Shown here one piece after another: positions 50,337-63,786 of a stretch of DNA of 64,000 bases (position 1 is the first letter of the stretch; every line of letters starts with the position of its first letter). Origin of the DNA: Luminiphilus sp. (GTDB taxonomy: Bacteria > Pseudomonadota > Gammaproteobacteria > Pseudomonadales > Halieaceae); the NCBI GenBank assembly GCA_029253085.1, contig JAQXAF010000033.1, positions 1 to 64,000 on the forward strand. Reading direction: 5' to 3'. The notes beneath the pieces were generated by a model that did no database searches, was not told where the DNA came from, and saw only the letters and a program-made list of their open reading frames with translations. The position numbers and the translations under genes are program-made.

Positions 50337-50624
50337 ATGTCCAATGATGCTATTGAAGCGGCGGTATTCCGTCGTTTGCTCGCCCATTTAGATGGGCGTA
50401 AAGATGTTCAAAATATAGAGCTCATGACCCTTGCGGGTTTTTGTAGAAACTGCCTTTCCAAATGGTATGTAGCGGAAGCTGCCGAGCAGGGTGAGTCGGT
50501 AGCGCTCGATGATGCCCGAGAGTTTGTTTACGGTATGCCCTACGGTGATTGGAAGTCTCAGCATCAAACGGAGGCAACCGCGGAACAGATGGCAGCTTTT
50601 GATGCGGCTAATGCCTCAAAGTAA
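50337..50624 (+). CDS. DUF1244 family protein
   Basis: RRLLAHLDGRKDVQNIELMTLAGFCRNCLSKWYVAEA...EFVYGMPYGDWKSQHQ. Confidence 0.85.
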   Translation: MSNDAIEAAVFRRLLAHLDGRKDVQNIELMTLAGFCRNCLSKWYVAEAAEQGESVALDDAREFVYGMPYGDWKSQHQTEATAEQMAAFDAANASK

Positions 50625-51266
50625 TTGTGCGATAACATCGTCAACCGATATCACGTCAGCATACTTGGCGTTTAAATCGTACAAATTGGCATTGTGGGCA
50701 TCGATATCCCTGTCACCTACCGCTTCTCTGGGTACCACAACGCGATACCCATTCTGAAGGCCATCTACGGCTGTGGCTCGGACGCACCCGCTAGTTGTCA
50801 GGCCGGTCACCACGAGGGAGTCTGCATCATTCTCTGCGAGTTGCGCACACAGGTCCGTGCCATGGAAGGAGCTGGCATGGGTTTTTTCGATGACGCTATC
50901 AGAGTCGATTATTGGCAAGCGTGAATCGAAGGCGACCCAGTGCGATTCCGGCGTCAACAATTCAAGACTGGGTAAACGATCTCGAAATACGCGTGCCTGC
51001 CGCTCGTTTCTATAGATGACAGTGGTAAGAAAGACCGGTAGCCCGCGGTGGTGAAAAGCCTTCATTAAAGTGACATTGGCGGCGACAACGCTATCGGCAT
51101 CACTGCCTAGGGGGCAATCCGAGTCGGTAAAGGCATTTACGATGTCCACAACAACCAGTGCAGGACGATCACCCAGCCCTAGTGCGTTTCGCTGTAAAGC
51201 TCCTTTAGTTTTCAATGCGTTTTCCTTTTCCAGAACTGGTGGCTGGAGATCAGCTTTATCTAACAC
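50616..51266 (-). CDS. Isochorismatase-fold amidohydrolase (maleamate / N-carbamoylsarcosine amidohydrolase-like)
   Basis: ALVVVDIVNAFTD, VVTGLTTSGCVRATAVDGLQNGYRVVVPREAVGDRD. Confidence 0.82.
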   Translation of the reverse strand: MLDKADLQPPVLEKENALKTKGALQRNALGLGDRPALVVVDIVNAFTDSDCPLGSDADSVVAANVTLMKAFHHRGLPVFLTTVIYRNERQARVFRDRLPSLELLTPESHWVAFDSRLPIIDSDSVIEKTHASSFHGTDLCAQLAENDADSLVVTGLTTSGCVRATAVDGLQNGYRVVVPREAVGDRDIDAHNANLYDLNAKYADVISVDDVIAQLL

Positions 51267-51502: not shown

Positions 51503-52399
51503 ATGACCAACGATATTTTGATAAAGGAAGTGGCACCTCGGGATGGTTTACAAGCTCAGCCCCAACATTTAACGCTAGAGCAACGCCAACGCTTGATAAA
51601 TAGCCTATCGATAACAGGGGTTCCTGAGCTCGAGATCGGGAGTTTTGTCTCGCCAAAAGCCGTACCTCAAATGGCGGGAACCGATGTGTTGGCGGCACAG
51701 CTACCGGCAGCGGATCTCGCTTACTCGGTGTTAGTTCCTAATATGAAAGGGTACGAGTTAGCGTTGGCCACGGGAATCAGAACTTATGCCATCGCTATTT
51801 CCGCGACCGAACAGATGAATCAGAACAATATCAAGAAGAGTCTTGAAGAGACGTTCTTGATGGCGGAGGATATTTTGGAGCGCGCTCGGGGCGACGGTGT
51901 CGATATTCATGTTTATCTGGCCGTCTCCTTTGTGTGTCCTTACGAGGGTCCGGTAGCGCCTGAAACTGTTCTGGCACAGGTGGAACGCCTGATGCGTGGT
52001 AACCCGGCTCGATTGATGATTGCGGATACCATTGGCGCGGCACATCCCAAGCAGGTGCACGATCTCATGACAGCGTTGGTGTCTCGGTATGGGCATCAAG
52101 ATCTTGGTTGCCATTTTCACGATACCCGCGCCATGGCTATCGCTAATGTCTACGCGGCAATCGAGGCGGGGGTTCGTCAGTTTGATAGCTCTGCAGGGGG
52201 GCTCGGTGGATGTCCATTTGCACCTGGAGCCAAGGGTAATGTTGCCACTGAAGACGTTGTTTTACTGTGTGAATCTATGGGGTATAACACCGGTATTCAC
52301 ATGCCTAGCCTGCTGGAGTCTGTTGCCTTGTTGAGTGAGTTTTTTGGCGCGCCCCAGGGTGGCCGCAGCCATTACTGGCTTAGCCGTGAATCGGCCTGA
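51503..52399 (+). CDS. HMG-CoA lyase-like protein
   Basis: IKEVAPRDGLQAQP, GCHFHDTRAMAIANVYAAIEAG, SAGGLGGCPFAPGAKGNVATED. Confidence 0.9.
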   Translation: MTNDILIKEVAPRDGLQAQPQHLTLEQRQRLINSLSITGVPELEIGSFVSPKAVPQMAGTDVLAAQLPAADLAYSVLVPNMKGYELALATGIRTYAIAISATEQMNQNNIKKSLEETFLMAEDILERARGDGVDIHVYLAVSFVCPYEGPVAPETVLAQVERLMRGNPARLMIADTIGAAHPKQVHDLMTALVSRYGHQDLGCHFHDTRAMAIANVYAAIEAGVRQFDSSAGGLGGCPFAPGAKGNVATEDVVLLCESMGYNTGIHMPSLLESVALLSEFFGAPQGGRSHYWLSRESA

Positions 52400-52408
52400 T
52401 TCGCTTCA

Positions 52409-53080
52409 ATGAATGTCTCAAAGGCGATTGAAGGTCGCCAAAGTATTCGCGCTTTCGATAGTCACCGTGAGGTGACCGAAGACGTTATCACGAGGATCCT
52501 CACCACCGCGGGTCGAGCGCCCTCGGGCTCTAATATTCAGCCTTGGCACGTGTATGTTGTGACAGGTGCAGCCAAAAATCGAATTACAGACGCCTGCACA
52601 GCACGTTACTTGTCGGGTGATGAAGGCGAATCTGAGTATCATTACTACCCTCAAACGTGGCGGCAACCTTACATTGGTCGGCGGCGACAAACGGGTTTTG
52701 GCTTGTACGGCCTGCTAGGCATCGACAAGGCAAATACCGAGGCAGTGCAGGGTTATCGTGTGACCAACTACCAGTTTTTTGGGGCTCCCATGGGCCTTTT
52801 TTTCACGATTGATCGCGATATGGAGTTAGGCAGCTGGGTAGATTACGGCATGTTCCTTCAGAGCATTATGTTAAGCGCTCGTGACGCAGGGCTCGAAACC
52901 TGTGCACAGGCAGCGTTTTGTCCCTATTACCAATCTGTGATGCCACTTTTGAACGCGCCGGACGAGCAAATGCTCGTCTGCGGGATGTCTTTGGGTTATC
53001 CCCAAAGGGAGGCAGTGATCAATGGCTACCGCACTGAGCGCCTCGATGCCCAGTCTTTCACGACCTTTCTCCAGGACTAG
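52409..53080 (+). CDS. Nitroreductase family protein
   Basis: IEGRQSIRAFDSHREV, GRAPSGSNIQPWHVYVVTG. Confidence 0.88.
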   Translation: MNVSKAIEGRQSIRAFDSHREVTEDVITRILTTAGRAPSGSNIQPWHVYVVTGAAKNRITDACTARYLSGDEGESEYHYYPQTWRQPYIGRRRQTGFGLYGLLGIDKANTEAVQGYRVTNYQFFGAPMGLFFTIDRDMELGSWVDYGMFLQSIMLSARDAGLETCAQAAFCPYYQSVMPLLNAPDEQMLVCGMSLGYPQREAVINGYRTERLDAQSFTTFLQD

Positions 53081-53082
53081 TG

Positions 53083-54231
53083 TTACTGGGCTCTCGCCAC
53101 CATTTGTTTTGCGATAATCATGCGCTGTATTTCGTTGGTGCCTTCCCCAATACAAAGCAGTGGGGCGTCACGGTAGAAGCGTTCGATTTCATACTCAGGC
53201 GAGTAGCTGTAGCCGCCAAAGACCCGCATAGCATCGAGGCTGTTTTGCACCGCTGATTCCGAGGCGAAAAATTTAGCTTGTCCCGCCTCAAGATCACAGC
53301 GTTCACCCTGATCAAATTTGTTGGCAGCTTGCTTCACCAACAATTCAGCCGCCGCAGCGCGGGTCGACATTTCTGCGAGTTTTAGTTGAATGGCTTGATG
53401 TTCGGCAATGGGTTTGCCAAAGGTTTTACGCTCCATGGCATAACGTAACGCCATGTCAGTAGCACCTTTCGCCATGCCGACGCCTCGGGCGGCAATGTTA
53501 ATGCGTCCCAGCTCCAGGCCGCCAGCGACCTGTTGAAAGCCTCGTCCCTCCTCGCCTCCAATTAAATTGTCGGCTGAGACGTGAAAGTCGTCGAAAATTA
53601 ACTCCGCACTGTCGATGGCTCGATAACCCAGCTTTTTAAGTTTCTTACCTACGGTAAACCCTTCGCCCTTTTCACAAAGAAATAGAGACATACCGCGATG
53701 CCGGGGTTCTATATCGGGATTGGTCTTGGTCAGGACTGCCAGGCAGTTGCCATTAATGCCATTGGAAATCCACGTCTTCGTGCCGTTTAAAATGTACTGG
53801 TCGCCTTGTCGTTTCGCCTGCAAGCGAATGCTCTGCAGATCAGAGCCCGCGTCGGGTTCCGTCAGGCCAATGCCGCCTCTTAACTCACCTGTGGCAAAGC
53901 GCGGTAAAAAATATTCTTTTTGCGCTTCGGTGCCCCCCCGCTCTACACAGTTAGCCATGATCAGATGCGAGTTAAAAATACCTGAGGGTGCCATCCACAC
54001 CTCACAAATTCGGGAAACAATTTTGGCATAAGTCGTCGCACTCAATCCGAGACCACCATACTGTTCAGAAATGGTGGCGCCAAAAAGGCCCAGCGCTTTC
54101 ATTTGTTCAACAAGGTCACTGGGGTACTCATCGGCCTGATCAAACTCTCTGGCGATAGGCCGCAATTCCCGTTCCACCCATTTGTCGATCGTAGCGAGTA
54201 TTTGCTGTTCAGTATCGTGTTCTGTAGTCAT
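53083..54231 (-). CDS. Acyl-CoA dehydrogenase
   Basis: GIGLTEPDAGSDLQSI, TKTWISNG, FGGYSYSPEYEIERFYRDAPLLCIGEGTNEIQRMIIAK. Confidence 0.95.
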   Translation of the reverse strand: MTTEHDTEQQILATIDKWVERELRPIAREFDQADEYPSDLVEQMKALGLFGATISEQYGGLGLSATTYAKIVSRICEVWMAPSGIFNSHLIMANCVERGGTEAQKEYFLPRFATGELRGGIGLTEPDAGSDLQSIRLQAKRQGDQYILNGTKTWISNGINGNCLAVLTKTNPDIEPRHRGMSLFLCEKGEGFTVGKKLKKLGYRAIDSAELIFDDFHVSADNLIGGEEGRGFQQVAGGLELGRINIAARGVGMAKGATDMALRYAMERKTFGKPIAEHQAIQLKLAEMSTRAAAAELLVKQAANKFDQGERCDLEAGQAKFFASESAVQNSLDAMRVFGGYSYSPEYEIERFYRDAPLLCIGEGTNEIQRMIIAKQMVARAQ

Positions 54232-54256
54232 GTTAACTCCGAATGGGGGCGGCGCT

Positions 54257-54751
54257 TTAAGCGGTCGGTGCAGGTTTTTTTGGCACCAGCATCTGACGTT
54301 CGAAGACACAGACTTCAACATCATGCTGATTAATGCCGCGGGTCAGTACCGTAACGATGCCAGCGTTGGGACGAGACTTGGACTCGCGTTTTCCCAGTAC
54401 TTCGGTGTTGGCGTAAAGCGTATCGCCGGGAAAAACTGGCTTGGTCAGCTTGATGTCCTTCCAGCCTAGATTCGCAATGGCTTTGGCGCTGACATCGGAC
54501 ACGCTCATGCCGACTACAATAGCAACTGTGAGCGGACTGGCGACCAGAGGTTTACCAAACTCGGTAGCTGCGGCATATTCCTCATCAAAATGTAGAGGGT
54601 GGGTGTTCATAGTGAGCAGGGTAAACCACGCGTTGTCTTGCTGGGATATGGTTCGACCCGGCAGGTGATGATAAATGTCACCTTCTTTAAAATCGTCAAA
54701 ATACCTTCCCGGCATAGCGGCGTAACGTTCCATTACTGATTGATTACTCAC
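54257..54751 (-). CDS. MaoC family (R)-hydratase
   Basis: GRYFDDFKEGDIYHHLPGRTISQQDNAWFTLLTMNTHPLHFDEEYAAATEFGKPL. Confidence 0.9.
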   Translation of the reverse strand: MSNQSVMERYAAMPGRYFDDFKEGDIYHHLPGRTISQQDNAWFTLLTMNTHPLHFDEEYAAATEFGKPLVASPLTVAIVVGMSVSDVSAKAIANLGWKDIKLTKPVFPGDTLYANTEVLGKRESKSRPNAGIVTVLTRGINQHDVEVCVFERQMLVPKKPAPTA

Positions 54752-54837
54752 CTCAATGGGCTCCTTCTAAGCTGTTTTTCGATCTTTTTGGGGTTTGCGG
54801 GTACTTCGGCCCCACAGCGCGTCAAAAACTCGTTAAA

Positions 54838-54849
54838 ATGTTCGGACAT
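54838..54849. promoter_or_regulatory. Predicted GntR operator, site 1
   Basis: ATGTTCGGACAT between the divergent MaoC and GntR genes; overlaps TAAAAT. Confidence 0.7.
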
Positions 54850-54874
54850 TTCCCGCAGAGTAGCAAGATTCGGC

Positions 54875-55657
54875 ATGCCGCCCAATCCAATAGACGTAAA
54901 AACTAAAAAAGAACCCCCGCTGTATCGGAAAATTGCCGATACGTTGCTGTCTGGAATCAGAGATGGCCTCTTTCCGGTTGGCACACTGTTGCCCGGGGAG
55001 CTCGAGCTAATTGAGCGCTTCAGTAGCAGTCGCCACACCGTTCGAGAAGCACTCCGTGTGCTGGAAGATATGGGTATCGTTAAGCGCCAGCGAGGGCGAG
55101 GTACTTTGGTGACTTCAACGGAAGCCAGGCCCGCTTTTGTGCAGGCAGTGCGTGACCCCCGTGAGTTGTTTACGTACCCCGAAAACAGCGCATTCCGTGT
55201 GCTGGCAGAGGGCAGTGTTGGGGATGAAGATCACTGGCCCGGTAAAATTGGCGAGGGGGTAGACGAAAATTGGGCGCGTATTGCAGGTCTCAGAACCCTG
55301 CATGATGGCAGCCCTTTTTGTTGGACCGATATTTATGTGCTCCCCGATTACGCGATGATTGCACAGCAGCTTGGCCGAACGAAAAGCCCTGTTTACGAAC
55401 AAATCGCTGAGACTTTTGGCGAAACCGTGCAGCGTATCAGCGTAGAGATTTGCGCTGGCAGCTTAAGGGGCGAGCGTGCGAAAGCCCTTTTGGTTGACGA
55501 GGGAACACCTTCACTGGTGTTGTATCGACGCTACCGCGGCAACGGTAACCGATTGTTTGAAGTCTCAGTAACTGAGCATCCCGCAGATAGTTTCAGCTAC
55601 TCCCTTGAATTTAATCGTGGTTGGCAAGCCGCCGAGCACTGGTCCTGGAGTAAATAG
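54875..55657 (+). CDS. GntR family transcriptional regulator, HutC/UTRA type
   Basis: wHTH PLYRKIADTLLSGIRDGLFPVGTLLPGELELIERFSSSRHTVREALRVLEDMGIVKRQRGRGTLV plus UTRA-like C-terminus. Confidence 0.92.
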   Translation: MPPNPIDVKTKKEPPLYRKIADTLLSGIRDGLFPVGTLLPGELELIERFSSSRHTVREALRVLEDMGIVKRQRGRGTLVTSTEARPAFVQAVRDPRELFTYPENSAFRVLAEGSVGDEDHWPGKIGEGVDENWARIAGLRTLHDGSPFCWTDIYVLPDYAMIAQQLGRTKSPVYEQIAETFGETVQRISVEICAGSLRGERAKALLVDEGTPSLVLYRRYRGNGNRLFEVSVTEHPADSFSYSLEFNRGWQAAEHWSWSK

Positions 55658-55659
55658 GT

Positions 55660-56556
55660 ATGGCACAGAGAGAGCTAGCGGTTATTCGCAGTTTTATGTT
55701 TACCCCTGCGAATCATCCCCGTCGCGTTGAAAAAGTTTTTCAGATTGGTGCCGACGCAGTCATCCTAGACTTAGAGGACGCCGTCGCGGTTGCAGAAAAA
55801 GTTGCTGCCCGGGACGATGTCATTGCTGCATTTTCTGCGTCTGGGCGTGACTGTCTGCACTATGTGCGCATCAATAGCATTGATACCGAATACTGGCTTG
55901 ACGATATTCGAGCTACCGTTGGTCCTTGGCTTGACGGAGTGGTTGTGCCGAAGGTGGAATCCGCTGCGGCACTGCTAGAGGTTGAGGGCGCAATTGCTGA
56001 GGCCGAAAGCACGGCCGGTCTTGAGGTGGGCAGTCTCGATATTTTGCCAATTATTGAAACGGCAAAGGGTGTCGAGACTGCCGCTGAAATCGCGACTGCA
56101 GGCTCCAGAATACGCCGACTCGCCTTTGGTGGCGGAGATTACACCCTTGATCTAGATTACGAGTGGAGCTCGGATGAGGACGTGCTGGCTTATGCTCGGG
56201 CGCGGTTGTCTCATGCCTCTCGGTTGGGCGGGTTGCAGCCGCCGATTGATACGGTTGTTCTTCAGATTAAAGACGATGAGCGTTTTACTGCGTCCGCACA
56301 GCGCGGACGCAAGTTTGGGTTTGGTGGAAAGCTCTGCATACACCCCAGTCAGGTACCGTTAACAAATTCAATCTTTTCGCCCTCAAGCGAAGAAATTGCT
56401 CATGCGAGCGCCGTCGTTGCGGCATTTGAGGCCGCTGAAGCCACTGGTTCAGCGTCGATTCAGCTCGATGGTTATTTTATTGATTATCCGATTGTCTACA
56501 AAAGCCAGCGCATTCTTGCCCTCGCAGCGCTGTTGGAGCAGCGAGAGGTTTCTTAA
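55660..56556 (+). CDS. HpcH/HpaI aldolase/citrate lyase (CitE-like) family protein
   Basis: RSFMFTPANHPRRVEKVFQIGADAVILDLEDAVAVAEK, GGKLCIHPSQV. Confidence 0.9.
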   Translation: MAQRELAVIRSFMFTPANHPRRVEKVFQIGADAVILDLEDAVAVAEKVAARDDVIAAFSASGRDCLHYVRINSIDTEYWLDDIRATVGPWLDGVVVPKVESAAALLEVEGAIAEAESTAGLEVGSLDILPIIETAKGVETAAEIATAGSRIRRLAFGGGDYTLDLDYEWSSDEDVLAYARARLSHASRLGGLQPPIDTVVLQIKDDERFTASAQRGRKFGFGGKLCIHPSQVPLTNSIFSPSSEEIAHASAVVAAFEAAEATGSASIQLDGYFIDYPIVYKSQRILALAALLEQREVS

Positions 56557-56600: not shown

Positions 56601-58022
56601 GTGACTAATACACCAACCCATCAAGATTCGTTGACGCGGCGTATTGCAACGTCATCCCTAGCTTTGCAGGGGGAAGACGTTGCGCCTGAAATAATGGCGT
56701 ATACCAAGAGCTGTATTGCCGACGCGATCGGCATAGGGTTTGCCTCGCATTATTACGACTTCGCAGAGCGTACCGTGGCGGGTGTGAGAACCCTCGCTAG
56801 CCCCGGTACGGGTGTCGTGATTGGGCTGGAGGATACCTTGGCGCCCAGGGATGCGGCGCTGTTAAATGGGACCTTGGTTCATGGTCTAGATTTTGACGAT
56901 ACGCATTTGGCTTCAGTCGTACATTGCTCGGCGAGTGCGTTGCCCACCGCCCTAGCGCTAGCGTCGGAGAGAGCGGTTTCGGGTACGGACTTACTGTTGT
57001 CATGCATTATTGCTACTGAGGTTGATGCTCGCCTGGGAAGCGCAGCGGGTGGCACCTTTCAGCAGCTTGGATTCCATCCAACGGGTGTTGTGGGTATTTT
57101 TGGTGCCACCGTTGCTGCAGTTCGACTGCTGGGTGGCACTATCGATGAGGCCGTCCGCGCCCAGGGAATTGCCCTGAGTATGGCTGGGGGAAGTATGGCT
57201 TTCCTTGATACGGGAACATGGACCAAAAGATTACATCCGGGCTGGGCTGCGCAATCCGCTCTGGCCGCGGCCAGGTTGGCCCTAGCGGGATTTGAGGCCC
57301 CACCTGAAGCCTATGCAGGGCGCTATGGGTTCTATGCGTTGTTCACGCAGAATGCTGACAACGTGAATAACGTAGATTGGTCCAGTGCCTATCAAGATTT
57401 CGCGATGGAGTCTGTGGCGATAAAACCCTATCCGATATGTCATTTCAATCACGCTCCGGTAGACGCGGCATTGCATTTGCGTGCTCAGCACGGACTCCGT
57501 CCAGACCATATCGAGTCGGTCACGATAGGGCTGCATGAGCGACAGTTCGCTGTGGTTGTCGAACCCGTAGCACGTAAACAAAGGCCTGAGAGTGAATATG
57601 AGGCCAAGTTCAGTGTCGCCTATGCGGTGGCAACCGCCTTGGTTCGCGGGGAATTAGGGCTGCGTGAATTAGAGCTCGAAAGCCGAACTGATGAAGAGAT
57701 TTTAGGGCTAACCCCGCGCATTCATTGCGTACACGACGATCGCTCCAATTATCCACAGACCTTCTCCGGTGGGGTTCGTATCAAGATGCGCGATGGCACA
57801 GTGTATGAGCATTTTGATGCGGTCAATCGGGGCGCCGAAGGCCGTTTATTAAGTGTGGGTGACGTTAAAACGAAGTTTTTCCAAAACTGCCGCTTAGTGC
57901 TTTCTCAAGCACGGACAGAAGCGGTCTGGGAAACGATTATGGACGTCGACAAGCAAGACGATTGCTCGACGTTATTAGAGGCCCTTAAAGGGCTAGGTGA
58001 CCATAGGTTGACTGCGAACTAA
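56601..58022 (+). CDS. MmgE/PrpD family protein
   Basis: CIADAIGIGFASHYYDFAE, LNGTLVHGLDFDDTHLASVVHCSASALPTALALAE-like motif; GTG start with AGGAGG. Confidence 0.92.
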   Translation: MTNTPTHQDSLTRRIATSSLALQGEDVAPEIMAYTKSCIADAIGIGFASHYYDFAERTVAGVRTLASPGTGVVIGLEDTLAPRDAALLNGTLVHGLDFDDTHLASVVHCSASALPTALALASERAVSGTDLLLSCIIATEVDARLGSAAGGTFQQLGFHPTGVVGIFGATVAAVRLLGGTIDEAVRAQGIALSMAGGSMAFLDTGTWTKRLHPGWAAQSALAAARLALAGFEAPPEAYAGRYGFYALFTQNADNVNNVDWSSAYQDFAMESVAIKPYPICHFNHAPVDAALHLRAQHGLRPDHIESVTIGLHERQFAVVVEPVARKQRPESEYEAKFSVAYAVATALVRGELGLRELELESRTDEEILGLTPRIHCVHDDRSNYPQTFSGGVRIKMRDGTVYEHFDAVNRGAEGRLLSVGDVKTKFFQNCRLVLSQARTEAVWETIMDVDKQDDCSTLLEALKGLGDHRLTAN

Positions 58023-58048: not shown

Positions 58049-59623
58049 ATGCTGATGAAGTCTGGCGGAAAAATTATGAGCGCCGAAGAATACCGCGAAA
58101 GCCTGCGCAGTTATTCGCCTACGGTTTATGTCGATGGCGACCTGATAGAGAGCGTTGCGGATGAGCCGAGGTTAGCCCCAGGTATCCGAGCCGTTGGTGT
58201 TACCTACGATTTTGCTCAAAAGCCCGAGTTTGGCGGCGTGATGCTGGCTGATCAGGCGAGCTCAGGCAAGACGGTCAATCGCATGCTGCATATTAATCGG
58301 CATTCCGAAGATTTGCTGAGCAAACTTGAGGCCGTGCGCTTATTGTGTCGTGAGAGTGGTTGTGCACAACGCTACCTGACCCATGATGCGCTCAATGCAA
58401 TTTATCAGTCCACTTGGCGTATGGCTGATGAAACCTCAGGTAGTGAGTATCACTCCCGGTTCATGGATTATTTGCACGATATTCAAGATCGCGACCTGAC
58501 CCTTGGCGTGGCTATGACTGACGCCAAAGGGGAGCGCAGTTTGCGGCCGCACGCTCAGTCTAACCCCGACGTGTACGTGCACATCAGTGAGCGTCGGGCC
58601 GATGGCATTGTGCTGTCAGGTACCAAGGCAATTGTGACGGGTGGCCCTTATATGCACGAGCTGCTGGTGATGCCCTGCCGGACGATGGTGAAAGGTGACG
58701 CTGACTTTGCGGTTTGTTGTGCCGTTCCTATCGACGCCAAAGGGCTGACCGTGATCGCCCGTCCAGCGGGACGTCCGGGTCAGGCCGCCGCTAAATTCAG
58801 CGCACAATATGGGCAGAGCACAGCGGTTTGCCATTTTTCCGAGGTTTTTGTGCCTTGGGATCGGGTGTTCATGGCTGGGGAATGGAACCAGACTGAGCAC
58901 CTCGTGACTTCTTATGCGAACCATCACCGTCACAGCTGCATTGGTGCCAGGGCAGGATTTGGCGATCTTCTCATCGGGGCAGGCGCGCTAATGACCGATG
59001 CCAATGGTCTCGATATGGACGACGTCTCGCATTTGCGGGAGACCATGGTTGAGCTGATTAAAATTGTTGAAGGCTTTTACGCTTGTGGTGTCGCGGCATC
59101 TGTTTATGGCATTCAAGATCCCTGCGGCTCTTGGATGCCAGAGCCGGTGTTTTCCAATATCGGTAAGTTACTGCTGGCGACACAGATCTACGATATGCAC
59201 CGAACCGCTCATGAGGTATCGGGGGGGTTGATTGTGGCCCTACCCGGACCGGATGAAGACCATAATCCGGCAACGGCGGGGGATCTCGCGGCAGTCCTCT
59301 CAGCGCGTCCCGATGTCCCCTATGATAAGCGTATGGAGGTTTCGCGCTTTATCGAAGACTTAACAGCCTCTTCGACCGGCGGTTGGTACTCAGTGATTAG
59401 CCTTCATGGTGGCGGTTCTCCCCAAGCGATGAAGCGTGAGATCTATCGGCGCTACCCGGTGGAAGAAAGAAAGGCACTTGTGGAACGCCTGCTTGATCGC
59501 GGTGTGGCTGAAACAGGCAGCACGGGTGCGCCAGATCGCCAGAAGCAACCGGGGCAATGTTGCGCAACCGGCTGTCAGGTGCCCGAATCGGGCCAAGGGC
59601 CAGAGCAAGAATCAGACGGCTAA
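58049..59623 (+). CDS. 4-hydroxyphenylacetate 3-hydroxylase / 4-hydroxybutyryl-CoA dehydratase superfamily flavoprotein
   Basis: SAEEYRESLRSYSPTVYVDGDLI, DAKGERSLRPHAQSNPDVYVHISERRADGIVLSGTKAIVTG, HGGGSPQAMKREIYR. Confidence 0.88.
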   Translation: MLMKSGGKIMSAEEYRESLRSYSPTVYVDGDLIESVADEPRLAPGIRAVGVTYDFAQKPEFGGVMLADQASSGKTVNRMLHINRHSEDLLSKLEAVRLLCRESGCAQRYLTHDALNAIYQSTWRMADETSGSEYHSRFMDYLHDIQDRDLTLGVAMTDAKGERSLRPHAQSNPDVYVHISERRADGIVLSGTKAIVTGGPYMHELLVMPCRTMVKGDADFAVCCAVPIDAKGLTVIARPAGRPGQAAAKFSAQYGQSTAVCHFSEVFVPWDRVFMAGEWNQTEHLVTSYANHHRHSCIGARAGFGDLLIGAGALMTDANGLDMDDVSHLRETMVELIKIVEGFYACGVAASVYGIQDPCGSWMPEPVFSNIGKLLLATQIYDMHRTAHEVSGGLIVALPGPDEDHNPATAGDLAAVLSARPDVPYDKRMEVSRFIEDLTASSTGGWYSVISLHGGGSPQAMKREIYRRYPVEERKALVERLLDRGVAETGSTGAPDRQKQPGQCCATGCQVPESGQGPEQESDG

Positions 59624-59728: not shown

Positions 59729-60574
59729 TTAAACGGGTACCGCTAGAGCCGCTGGCGGCAAAATAGTTGTCCGCTTCATGAGTCGATCGTGACTTTGGTC
59801 AAAGGGATCCCGACGATGCATGGTGCAGGCATTGTCCCAGAGCAATGCGTCACCCGGTTGCCACAAATGTGAGTAGACATAGCGGGGCTGCACCGTCCAA
59901 TCAAAGAGATAATCAAGCATGGCCCGGCTATCGGCTACTCCCCATCCGACAATTTCGGTCGTCATGCCGGGGCATAGGTAGAGGGCTTTCTCACCCGTTA
60001 TGGGGTGGGTTCGCACGATGGGATGCTCAATGTCTGGAGAACGTTTCTTTTGTTCATTGCTCGTGGGGACACTGTATGCGCTGTTAAAAGCCTCATAGGA
60101 TTGTACGGCGCGCGCGCCCTCAAGTCGCTGCTTGACCTCTTCGGGCAGCTCCCTATACGCCGATGTCATGTCGGCAAATTCTGTGTTGCCCCCGGTTGGT
60201 GGCAGGGTATGGGCCATTAACAGTGAGCCAACGGCAGGACGGGGTAAATAAATTTGATCGTAATGCCAACCTACTTCGGTGTCGGCAAGAATGCCCATTT
60301 TCTTTCCGTTGTTTTGCATATTTGAGACGTACAGAACCTCGGGAAACTCTGACGAAAGGTATTCGGTGCGAACGTGAATTTCGAGGTCGCCAAAAACGCG
60401 GCTAAAGGTGACTAGGGTTTCTTCATCGAGATTCTGGTTTCTAAATAAGAGCAGCTTATGTTTGGCCCACAGAGACTTTATGGCCGTGTTTTCCTCGCCA
60501 GACGTTGTCGAGGAGATTGTGTATTCAGAAACTTCTGCACCGAAAGTGGCAGCCAGAGGCCTTGTGTTGAGCAT
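59729..60574 (-). CDS. TauD/TfdA family Fe(II)/2-oxoglutarate dioxygenase
   Basis: GWHYDQIYLPRPAVGSLLMAHTLPPTGGNTEFADM (HxD); distal His in DNACTMHRRDPF. Confidence 0.92.
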   Translation of the reverse strand: MLNTRPLAATFGAEVSEYTISSTTSGEENTAIKSLWAKHKLLLFRNQNLDEETLVTFSRVFGDLEIHVRTEYLSSEFPEVLYVSNMQNNGKKMGILADTEVGWHYDQIYLPRPAVGSLLMAHTLPPTGGNTEFADMTSAYRELPEEVKQRLEGARAVQSYEAFNSAYSVPTSNEQKKRSPDIEHPIVRTHPITGEKALYLCPGMTTEIVGWGVADSRAMLDYLFDWTVQPRYVYSHLWQPGDALLWDNACTMHRRDPFDQSHDRLMKRTTILPPAALAVPV

Positions 60575-61567: not shown

Positions 61568-62251
61568 TTATCGGGCGCCTTGGTGGAGTTCTGTGAGCAC
61601 CTCATCGGTTGTCAACACGCGCGCCCACAGTCTTTTTAGCATAGTCAGGGTGGCGTTCTGCATTTCATCGCTGTCTGTTCCGGTGCCGTCACTGACAACG
61701 ACCACCCGATACTGAAGGTCGCAGGCTTCCATGGAGGTCATAGCGACACAGTTGTTAGTAGATACGCCCACGGTTACCACGGTTTTGATGCCCTTGGCTC
61801 GGAGGGTGGTATCTAGGCCGGTGGAGCAAAAGGCACCCTGGGTCGTTTTGTTAACAACCAATTCACCGGGTTGTGGCTGTAACGGGGCGACGATCTCATG
61901 TTCTTTTTGCCCTGCAATATTGTTTGTGGCGCGAATAATAGGTGCCATATGGGCCGGGGCATCGCTCGCGTCGGGAGCGTTGGCACCGTAGGTAACGTAA
62001 ATCACTTCAGCCCCCAGCTTTCGGAAGCCGGCTAATAGCTTTTGAATGTTAGGGATCAAAAGTTCGTTGATGCGGTTGAAGCGATAGGCGGCACCCTCAA
62101 ATTCACCGCGGTCGGCGAGGAGCTTGCCCAATCCCATATCGGGGTTACCGGTAGCGTTTTGCATATCAATGACGACCAAGGCGGTCTCACTGGGCGTGAT
62201 GGCAAAATTCTGGCTAAAGGCATCGACGAATCCCGGCTGGCTATGATTCAT
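61568..62251 (-). CDS. Isochorismatase-fold hydrolase (RutB/biuret hydrolase-like)
   Basis: ETALVVIDMQNATGNPDMG, VNKTTQGAFCSTGLDTTLRAKGIKTVVTVGVSTNNCVAMTSMEA; start chosen at MNHSQPG. Confidence 0.85.
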   Translation of the reverse strand: MNHSQPGFVDAFSQNFAITPSETALVVIDMQNATGNPDMGLGKLLADRGEFEGAAYRFNRINELLIPNIQKLLAGFRKLGAEVIYVTYGANAPDASDAPAHMAPIIRATNNIAGQKEHEIVAPLQPQPGELVVNKTTQGAFCSTGLDTTLRAKGIKTVVTVGVSTNNCVAMTSMEACDLQYRVVVVSDGTGTDSDEMQNATLTMLKRLWARVLTTDEVLTELHQGAR

Positions 62252-62269
62252 TTTCAGTGCTCTCTTGAA

Positions 62270-62281
62270 ATGTTCGTACAT
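62270..62281. promoter_or_regulatory. Predicted GntR operator, site 4
   Basis: ATGTTCGTACAT between divergent isochorismatase genes; minus strand reads TAAAATGTACGAACATTT. Confidence 0.7.
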
Positions 62282-62339
62282 TTTACGCCATATTGCGACT
62301 CCACCCCAAACGACACTCTCAACATCGAGGTTTGTAGCG

Positions 62340-62957
62340 ATGGATCAGTTTGAACGCGCAGGATATGGGCAGAGAAATATTGGTTTTGGCGCAAGACCTG
62401 CGCTGTTAATGGTTGATTTTCAGCTGGGGTTTACTGACGGGGTAAGTCCCATTGGTCGCAGTGAGCATATTCAAAGTGCAGTAGACAACACCCGCACGTT
62501 GCTTTTGGCGTGCAAAGCGAAAGGGATTCCGGTGGCCTCCTGTCGCGTGTCTTGGGGTGGCCCCGATGAAATGACGCATTGGAAAATAGAAACGTTATTC
62601 GACGGTAGCTTTTATCACGGCCATCATTGCACTGAGCTGGACCCACGCATAGCAGATCCAGACTACGTGTTTGAGTTCATAAAAACCGCACCGTCGATTT
62701 TTTATGAAACACCGTTGAAGCCTTGGTTGGTTACTCACGGTATCGATACGACCATTGTCACGGGTTGCACCACCTCGGGCTGTGTTCGAGCATCGGTTGT
62801 CGATAGTTTTTCAGCGGGTTATCGCACGATTGTTCCCGCAGATTGCTGTGGCGATCAGGATGCAGAAGCGCATGCGAGCAATCTTCGCGATGTCGATCGG
62901 CGCTATGCAGATGTTGTCGATTTACAAACGGTTTTAAATCACATTAACGGTTCCTAA
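62340..62957 (+). CDS. Isochorismatase-fold amidohydrolase (N-carbamoylsarcosine/maleamate amidohydrolase-like)
   Basis: PALLMVDFQLGFTDG, IVTGCTTSGCVRASVVDSFSAGYRTIVPADCCGDQD; start chosen at MDQFERAG. Confidence 0.85.
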   Translation: MDQFERAGYGQRNIGFGARPALLMVDFQLGFTDGVSPIGRSEHIQSAVDNTRTLLLACKAKGIPVASCRVSWGGPDEMTHWKIETLFDGSFYHGHHCTELDPRIADPDYVFEFIKTAPSIFYETPLKPWLVTHGIDTTIVTGCTTSGCVRASVVDSFSAGYRTIVPADCCGDQDAEAHASNLRDVDRRYADVVDLQTVLNHINGS

Positions 62958-62982: not shown

Positions 62983-63786
62983 ATGCCTGTGGCCCACATT
63001 AACGGACACAATATGTACTACGAAGTCCACGGCGAAGGTCCGCCCGCGGTTTACATTGGCGGGTGGGATACCTTTTGTCATGGCCGCAGCCATTTTCTGG
63101 CTCGGGGTATGACTGACAATTACAGCACCCTGATAATTGATTATCGCGGTATTGGTGAGTCCGACGATGATTTGTCGATGACACCCTCTACGGAGCTGTT
63201 TGCAGACGACATCGCGGCGCTGCTTGATCATCTCAATATGAAGTCAGTGTATTTTGTGGGGTTGGTGGGCATGGGGGCGTGCATAGGACAGTGGGTTGCC
63301 CTGAAACGCCCTGATCTCGTGCGATGCATGGTCAATATGGGTTGTTGGACATGGGCGGATCCCATGTTGTCAGATCAGCTGCAGTCTTTCGGTGATATTC
63401 ATGAACATGCCGGTTTCGCCGCGTTTCAGGCGATGGTGGCGTCGTATTCTTTCCGACCCGATTACTACAACACCCATCGGAATAAGTTAATGGGTCCGGG
63501 AGGTGTATGGGGCAGTTTAGAGGGGCGAATACCGGCTCACTTACGTTTCATTCAGGCCTGTAGAGGACACGATATTCGCCCGCACCTCAAGGATATCGCG
63601 GCGCCGACCTTGGTTCTGCATGCGGGACAGGACGTGATCACGGGCCCGCGCACCACCATGCCGTTGGAGGAGGGGTTGCCCAATAGCACGGGGGTCATGA
63701 TGGAGCAGGTTGCCCATGTGGTTGCAGGTAAAGACGAAAAAATCGCGTTTTGTGACATCCTGTTCGACTTCCTCCAAAAGCATTAA
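62983..63786 (+). CDS. Alpha/beta hydrolase, RutD-like
   Basis: IIDYRGIGESDDD, VLHAGQDVITGP and EQVAHVV (acid and His); no GxSxG. Confidence 0.82.
   Translation: MPVAHINGHNMYYEVHGEGPPAVYIGGWDTFCHGRSHFLARGMTDNYSTLIIDYRGIGESDDDLSMTPSTELFADDIAALLDHLNMKSVYFVGLVGMGACIGQWVALKRPDLVRCMVNMGCWTWADPMLSDQLQSFGDIHEHAGFAAFQAMVASYSFRPDYYNTHRNKLMGPGGVWGSLEGRIPAHLRFIQACRGHDIRPHLKDIAAPTLVLHAGQDVITGPRTTMPLEEGLPNSTGVMMEQVAHVVAGKDEKIAFCDILFDFLQKH

Follow-up and report, generated by a model that had tools for sequence, protein, structure and literature searches.

The analysed DNA, a stretch of 64,000 nucleotides from a Luminiphilus sp. contig (hereafter the window), contains an intact ORF at 58049–59623 on the plus strand, which codes for a flavoprotein of the AbfD/HpaB fold (524 aa, followed by a stop codon). 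It is the last gene of a same-strand run that begins with a GntR/UTRA regulator (54740–55657, +) and continues with a CitE/HpcH-type C–C lyase (55660–56556, +) and an MmgE/PrpD-family protein (56601–58022, +), the latter ending 26 bases before the flavoprotein ORF starts. On the left side, the outer neighbours are an isochorismatase-family hydrolase (50616–51266, −), an HMG-CoA-lyase-like enzyme (51503–52399, +), a nitroreductase-family protein (52409–53080, +), an acyl-CoA dehydrogenase (53083–54324, −, as listed from the first ATG; it overlaps the following ORF) and a MaoC/RipB-like enoyl-CoA hydratase (54257–54751, −). On the right side, the flavoprotein is followed by a TauD/TfdA-family dioxygenase (59729–60574, −), two further isochorismatase-family hydrolases (61568–62281, −, similar to RutB and biuret hydrolase, and 62265–62957, +) and a PcaD/RutD-like alpha/beta hydrolase (62983–63786, +). 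The gene order around the flavoprotein is conserved among close Luminiphilus relatives.

Beyond the window, the same contig carries genes for a family III CoA-transferase, for HyuA/HyuB-like (caprolactamase-related) subunits and for a RutA-like flavin monooxygenase, which scored 381 bits against the RutA cut-off of 498. The HyuA/HyuB-like pair and the CoA-transferase were found at the window's end in all three loci compared (L166, contig C33, 63001–71374; L167; L168), and in L166 and L167 the RutA-like LLM monooxygenase comes next. Together with the three isochorismatase-type hydrolases, these genes look like a large uncharacterised Luminiphilus region for the catabolism of cyclic amides or N-heterocycles, and the gene cluster may serve more than one pathway.

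The flavoprotein consists of an HpaB_N domain (PF11794, residues 12–275, 58082–58873, +; E = 5.5e-82, 275.8 bits) and an HpaB C-terminal domain (PF03241, residues 284–483, 58898–59497, +; E = 6.5e-54, 182.6 bits), both above the gathering score. The fold is shared by cluster-free monooxygenases and by 4-hydroxybutyryl-CoA dehydratase (4HBD), the textbook case of radical chemistry carried out by a flavin together with an Fe–S cluster. The best PDB match was the 4HBD AbfD (1u8v, E = 5e-91, 35% identity), followed by a second 4HBD (6vjr, E = 6e-86), while HpaB lay well behind them (E = 2e-31). The likeness to AbfD along the length of the protein, proposed in the initial annotation, holds: the motifs quoted there were all found, and both 4HBDs could be aligned over residues 9–481. 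The comparison of a predicted structure with solved folds, which had also been proposed, gave the same picture, since Foldseek placed the AF2 model (mean pLDDT 87) closest to 6vjr and 1u8v (rmsd 1.8–2.0, TM 0.86–0.92) and HpaB-type oxygenases next. The relation to AbfD-type 4HBDs is thus consistent in the PDB search, in Foldseek and in the tree described below. The scores obtained with the NCBIfam models TIGR02309 (119.4 bits, cut-off 480.2) and TIGR02310 (70.6 bits, cut-off 885.2) were both below the cut-off.

Orthologues with 80–98% identity are present in Luminiphilus (Halieaceae), and those with 64–71% identity occur in other Gammaproteobacteria and in further Pseudomonadota classes, judged to be alphaproteobacterial. 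For comparison, 111 relatives were aligned, including 38 full-length members of this clade, which belong to Gamma- and Alphaproteobacteria, and 73 other proteins, 35 of which are canonical 4HBD-like. In the maximum-likelihood tree the clade was sister to all sampled 4HBDs, both groups having 100/100 support, and stood apart from the HpaB-like proteins. Among the Luminiphilus genomes searched, 24 (including that of the window) carry a clade member and 13 a canonical 4HBD-like homologue, with no overlap. Both types occur together in genome G863, which belongs to another class. On plasmid pMSPYR101 of Mycolicibacterium gilvum (L136, 12001–12564), a clade member survives as a remnant whose QPGKCCATGC tail is intact; it lies beside an acyl-CoA dehydrogenase fragment and extends the clade to Actinomycetota. 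A third, very divergent variant with 30% identity (L108, genome G630, 1492–2991, −) branches near the base of the 4HBD group and has neither any of the cluster-ligand positions nor the tail. A fusion-like homologue in a 1192-aa open frame (L093) was taken as a spurious GC-rich upstream extension. No earlier description of the clade was found in the open-access literature, to which the search was confined. Hence the flavoprotein is best filed as a member of an apparently uncharacterised clade, sister to 4HBD, within the known HpaB/4HBD acyl-CoA-dehydrogenase-like superfamily.

To locate the cluster ligands, AbfD residue numbers were checked against the PDB sequence before alignment. Two of the four ligands are retained in 38/38 members, C99 as C105 (58361–58363, +) and H292 as H293 (58925–58927, +), while C103 is replaced by Y109 (58373–58375, +) and C299 by A300 (58946–58948, +), equally in 38/38. 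These are exactly the states that had been read by eye in the initial annotation. That annotation missed the further exchanges at 4HBD active-site positions and the newly acquired invariant cysteines, among them those of a C-terminal CCxxGC. At the positions corresponding to AbfD 99/103/257/292/296/299/300/455/460, all 38 clade members have C-Y-(T/V)-H-C-A-R-I-G and all 35 canonical relatives have C-C-E-H-Y-C-K-E-A, without any intermediate among the aligned 38 and 35 sequences. E257, Y296, K300 and E455, which we take to be active-site residues of AbfD, are thus Thr or Val, Cys, Arg and Ile, respectively, in every member; the last one is I450 (59396–59398, +), in place of an acidic residue. 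The loss of the canonical 4HBD [4Fe–4S] cluster is a well-supported expectation from these sequences, as is the earlier claim that canonical 4HBD chemistry is improbable, given that two ligands and the equivalents of E257, Y296, K300 and E455 are exchanged throughout.

The losses were accompanied by gains. Six invariant cysteines of the clade are absent from 4HBDs: C100 (58346–58348, +), which is Gly in 35/35 4HBDs, C224 (58718–58720, +), C297 (58937–58939, +), which takes the place of AbfD Y296, and C504, C505 and C509 of the C-terminal tail. H293, C297 and A300 lie at i, i+4 and i+7 on one helix of the AF2 model (residues 279–318). The tail motif, QPGQCCATGCQVP (residues 500–512, 59546–59584, +), is conserved as QPG[QRK]CCxxGCxxP in 38/38 members, and a CCxxGC near the C-terminus was found in none of the 73 other relatives. 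It is separated from the HGGGSP motif by a linker that sets the CC at a distance of 47–59 residues, and it is modelled as disordered (pLDDT <50). At the invariant tail residues the members differ in synonymous codons (TGT or TGC for Cys, all four codons for Gly), indicating that selection acts on the protein. A pseudogene or a sequencing error was ruled out, since all 38 members, including those at only 64% identity, show the pattern and the invariant tail positions vary only synonymously. As judged from the alignment, the ligand pattern is a fixed signature of the clade and not decay: residues capable of metal binding or redox chemistry were both lost and gained, so the clade did not simply degenerate. 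Membership of the tail in PF09791 (Oxidored-like) was also ruled out, because the match fell well short of the gathering score (13 of the 24 bits required, E = 0.088) and the final Cys is missing; a scan of the window's genome with PF09791 gave no match.

R108, D113 and T197, which are superfamily-wide positions, are retained in the clade together with the AMTDxKGxR stretch of 4HBDs, and therefore binding of FAD is likely. No flavin reductase gene is adjacent to the flavoprotein. The genome codes for three PF01613 proteins away from it, one of which is closest to the model of the p-hydroxyphenylacetate hydroxylase reductase (HpaC-type). Outside Luminiphilus the neighbourhood of the clade members is variable: a TetR gene diverges from the flavoprotein gene in about 15 genomes, and in about ten of these it is followed by an isochorismatase-family hydrolase. 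An acetyl-CoA-synthetase-like gene is added at three loci (L097, L132, L133), and an AidB-like acyl-CoA dehydrogenase is present at some. At one locus (L156, 10825–16187), genes for an alpha/beta hydrolase, an MFS transporter and a TctA/TctC tricarboxylate-type transporter lie upstream on the same strand as the clade member, which hints at an organic-acid substrate. The recurrent pairing of a flavoenzyme with an amide-type hydrolase follows a Rut-like logic, and the neighbours suggest that the clade breaks down cyclic amides, N-heterocycles or related acids.

Considering these results, the explanation we prefer, to which we give about an even chance, is a catabolic FAD enzyme that has retained the fold and the superfamily-wide residues expected at the FAD site, has lost the 4HBD cluster together with the 4HBD residues, and works aerobically with a reductase supplied in trans. 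The flavoprotein would bind FAD, reduced FAD would be delivered by an HpaC-type reductase for aerobic turnover, and the substrate to be oxidized would be small, a cyclic amide, an N-heterocycle or a related carboxylic compound. The product would then pass to the amide hydrolases encoded nearby and also, in Luminiphilus, to the CoA-ester enzymes, while the flexible three-Cys tail could act as a redox or metal-binding accessory to the active site. The nature of the substrate and the role of the tail are the least certain of these steps. Monooxygenase activity is plausible from the fold and the neighbours, but Y104 and H142 of HpaB are not conserved, so that a hydroxylation site of the HpaB type is absent. 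A flavin without a cluster is possible and is favoured among the three readings of the cofactor, the others being a rebuilt metal or Fe–S site and a dithiol relay. The proposal of a flavin-only enzyme in the initial annotation stands as far as the loss of the canonical cluster is concerned, whereas flavin-only is just one option, since the new invariant cysteines would be sufficient for another centre. The six gained cysteines are more in line with a metal or redox centre than with a plain flavin monooxygenase.

A rebuilt metal site is rather unlikely: C105, H293 and C297, completed by C504, C505 and C509 of the tail or by Y109, would hold an Fe–S cluster or a mononuclear metal beside FAD, the ligands being exchanged rather than abandoned. 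This would agree with the position of C297 on the modelled helix of H293, with the invariance of C105, H293, C297, C504, C505 and C509 in 38/38 members, with the coincidence of cysteine gains and ligand losses in one clade and, far below the cut-off, with the resemblance of the tail to the CCxxGC core of PF09791. The tail cysteines could come from the same or from a neighbouring subunit. The C-terminal helix of TtHpaB wraps around dimers (PMC10816480), so it is conceivable that the tail reaches the active site of the neighbour. On the other hand, the model provides no geometry for the disordered tail, and His plus two Cys alone would make an unusual ligand set for a cluster. A more specific version, in which two ligands of the protein body were swapped for the helix Cys and a mobile CCxxGC tail that gates a metal or Fe–S centre beside FAD, with a reaction unlike those of 4HBD and HpaB, is unlikely.

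That the tail is a redox relay, in which the vicinal Cys pair and the third Cys form a mobile dithiol for electron exchange with FAD and with a disulfide in the active site (e.g., C105–C297), seems doubtful. C-terminal redox tails are known from thioredoxin reductase and mercuric reductase, an analogy that is functional only. Such a relay would fit the vicinal CC, which lies in a predicted disordered tail after a linker that varies in length, and the invariance of C105 and C297, both at positions that belonged to the cluster site, but no sequence relation to the two reductases was found, and the third Cys and its QPG…GC..P context would be left unexplained. An ordinary HpaB-type two-component phenol hydroxylase is very improbable. 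The Pfam matches, the fold and R108, which corresponds to R100 of HpaB, speak for it. HpaB binds its substrate by R100, Y104 and H142 (PMC10816480); Y104 is replaced by Ala or Gly and H142 by Val, Ile or Ala in the clade, the protein falls far below the cut-off of TIGR02309 and the tree places the clade with 4HBDs. Finally, a 4-hydroxybutyryl-CoA dehydratase or vinylacetyl-CoA isomerase whose degenerate cluster still functions is hardly credible, since the near-identical fold, the 35% identity to AbfD and the adjoining CoA-ester enzymes in Luminiphilus are outweighed by the exchanges in all members and by the presence of a canonical 4HBD-like paralogue in some genomes (e.g., G863).

As the sister group of 4HBD, the clade lost half of the ligands through a single concerted series of exchanges while it gained a conserved cysteine tail. 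It is a natural experiment that bears on the loss or rebuilding of a catalytic cluster. The HpaB name of the Pfam families would be misleading for its chemistry, and fixed diagnostic residues now distinguish it from its relatives. A 4HBD fold without most of the catalytic residues is combined in it with a strictly conserved three-Cys tail, and its chemistry is now directly testable.

Compared with known systems, the clade shares with AbfD (1u8v) and the N. maritimus 4HBD (6vjr) the fold over about 480 residues, C99 and H292, the AMTDxKGxR stretch and T190. It differs by the invariant exchanges (C103 to Tyr, C299 to Ala, Y296 to Cys, K300 to Arg, E455 to Ile and A460 to Gly in 38/38, and E257 to Thr or Val), by the extra invariant cysteines and by the CCxxGC tail. 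In Metallosphaera two candidates for 4HBD have been listed, and activity was measured for only one of them. The second candidate may lack ligands. With HpaB (2yyg) the clade has the superfamily fold and R100 in common, but identity is about 23%, Y104 and H142 are exchanged, a residue is inserted at Y109, and the clade does not group with the HpaB-like proteins in the tree. As the 4HBD residues are exchanged and only R100 of the HpaB trio is retained, the active site matches neither 4HBD nor HpaB, and in the absence of Y104 and H142, HpaB chemistry cannot simply be transferred to it. The tail has the CCxxGC core in common with the Oxidored-like motif of PF09791, without its final Cys, and the arrangement of a flavoenzyme beside an amide-type hydrolase at the clade loci resembles that of the Rut pathway.
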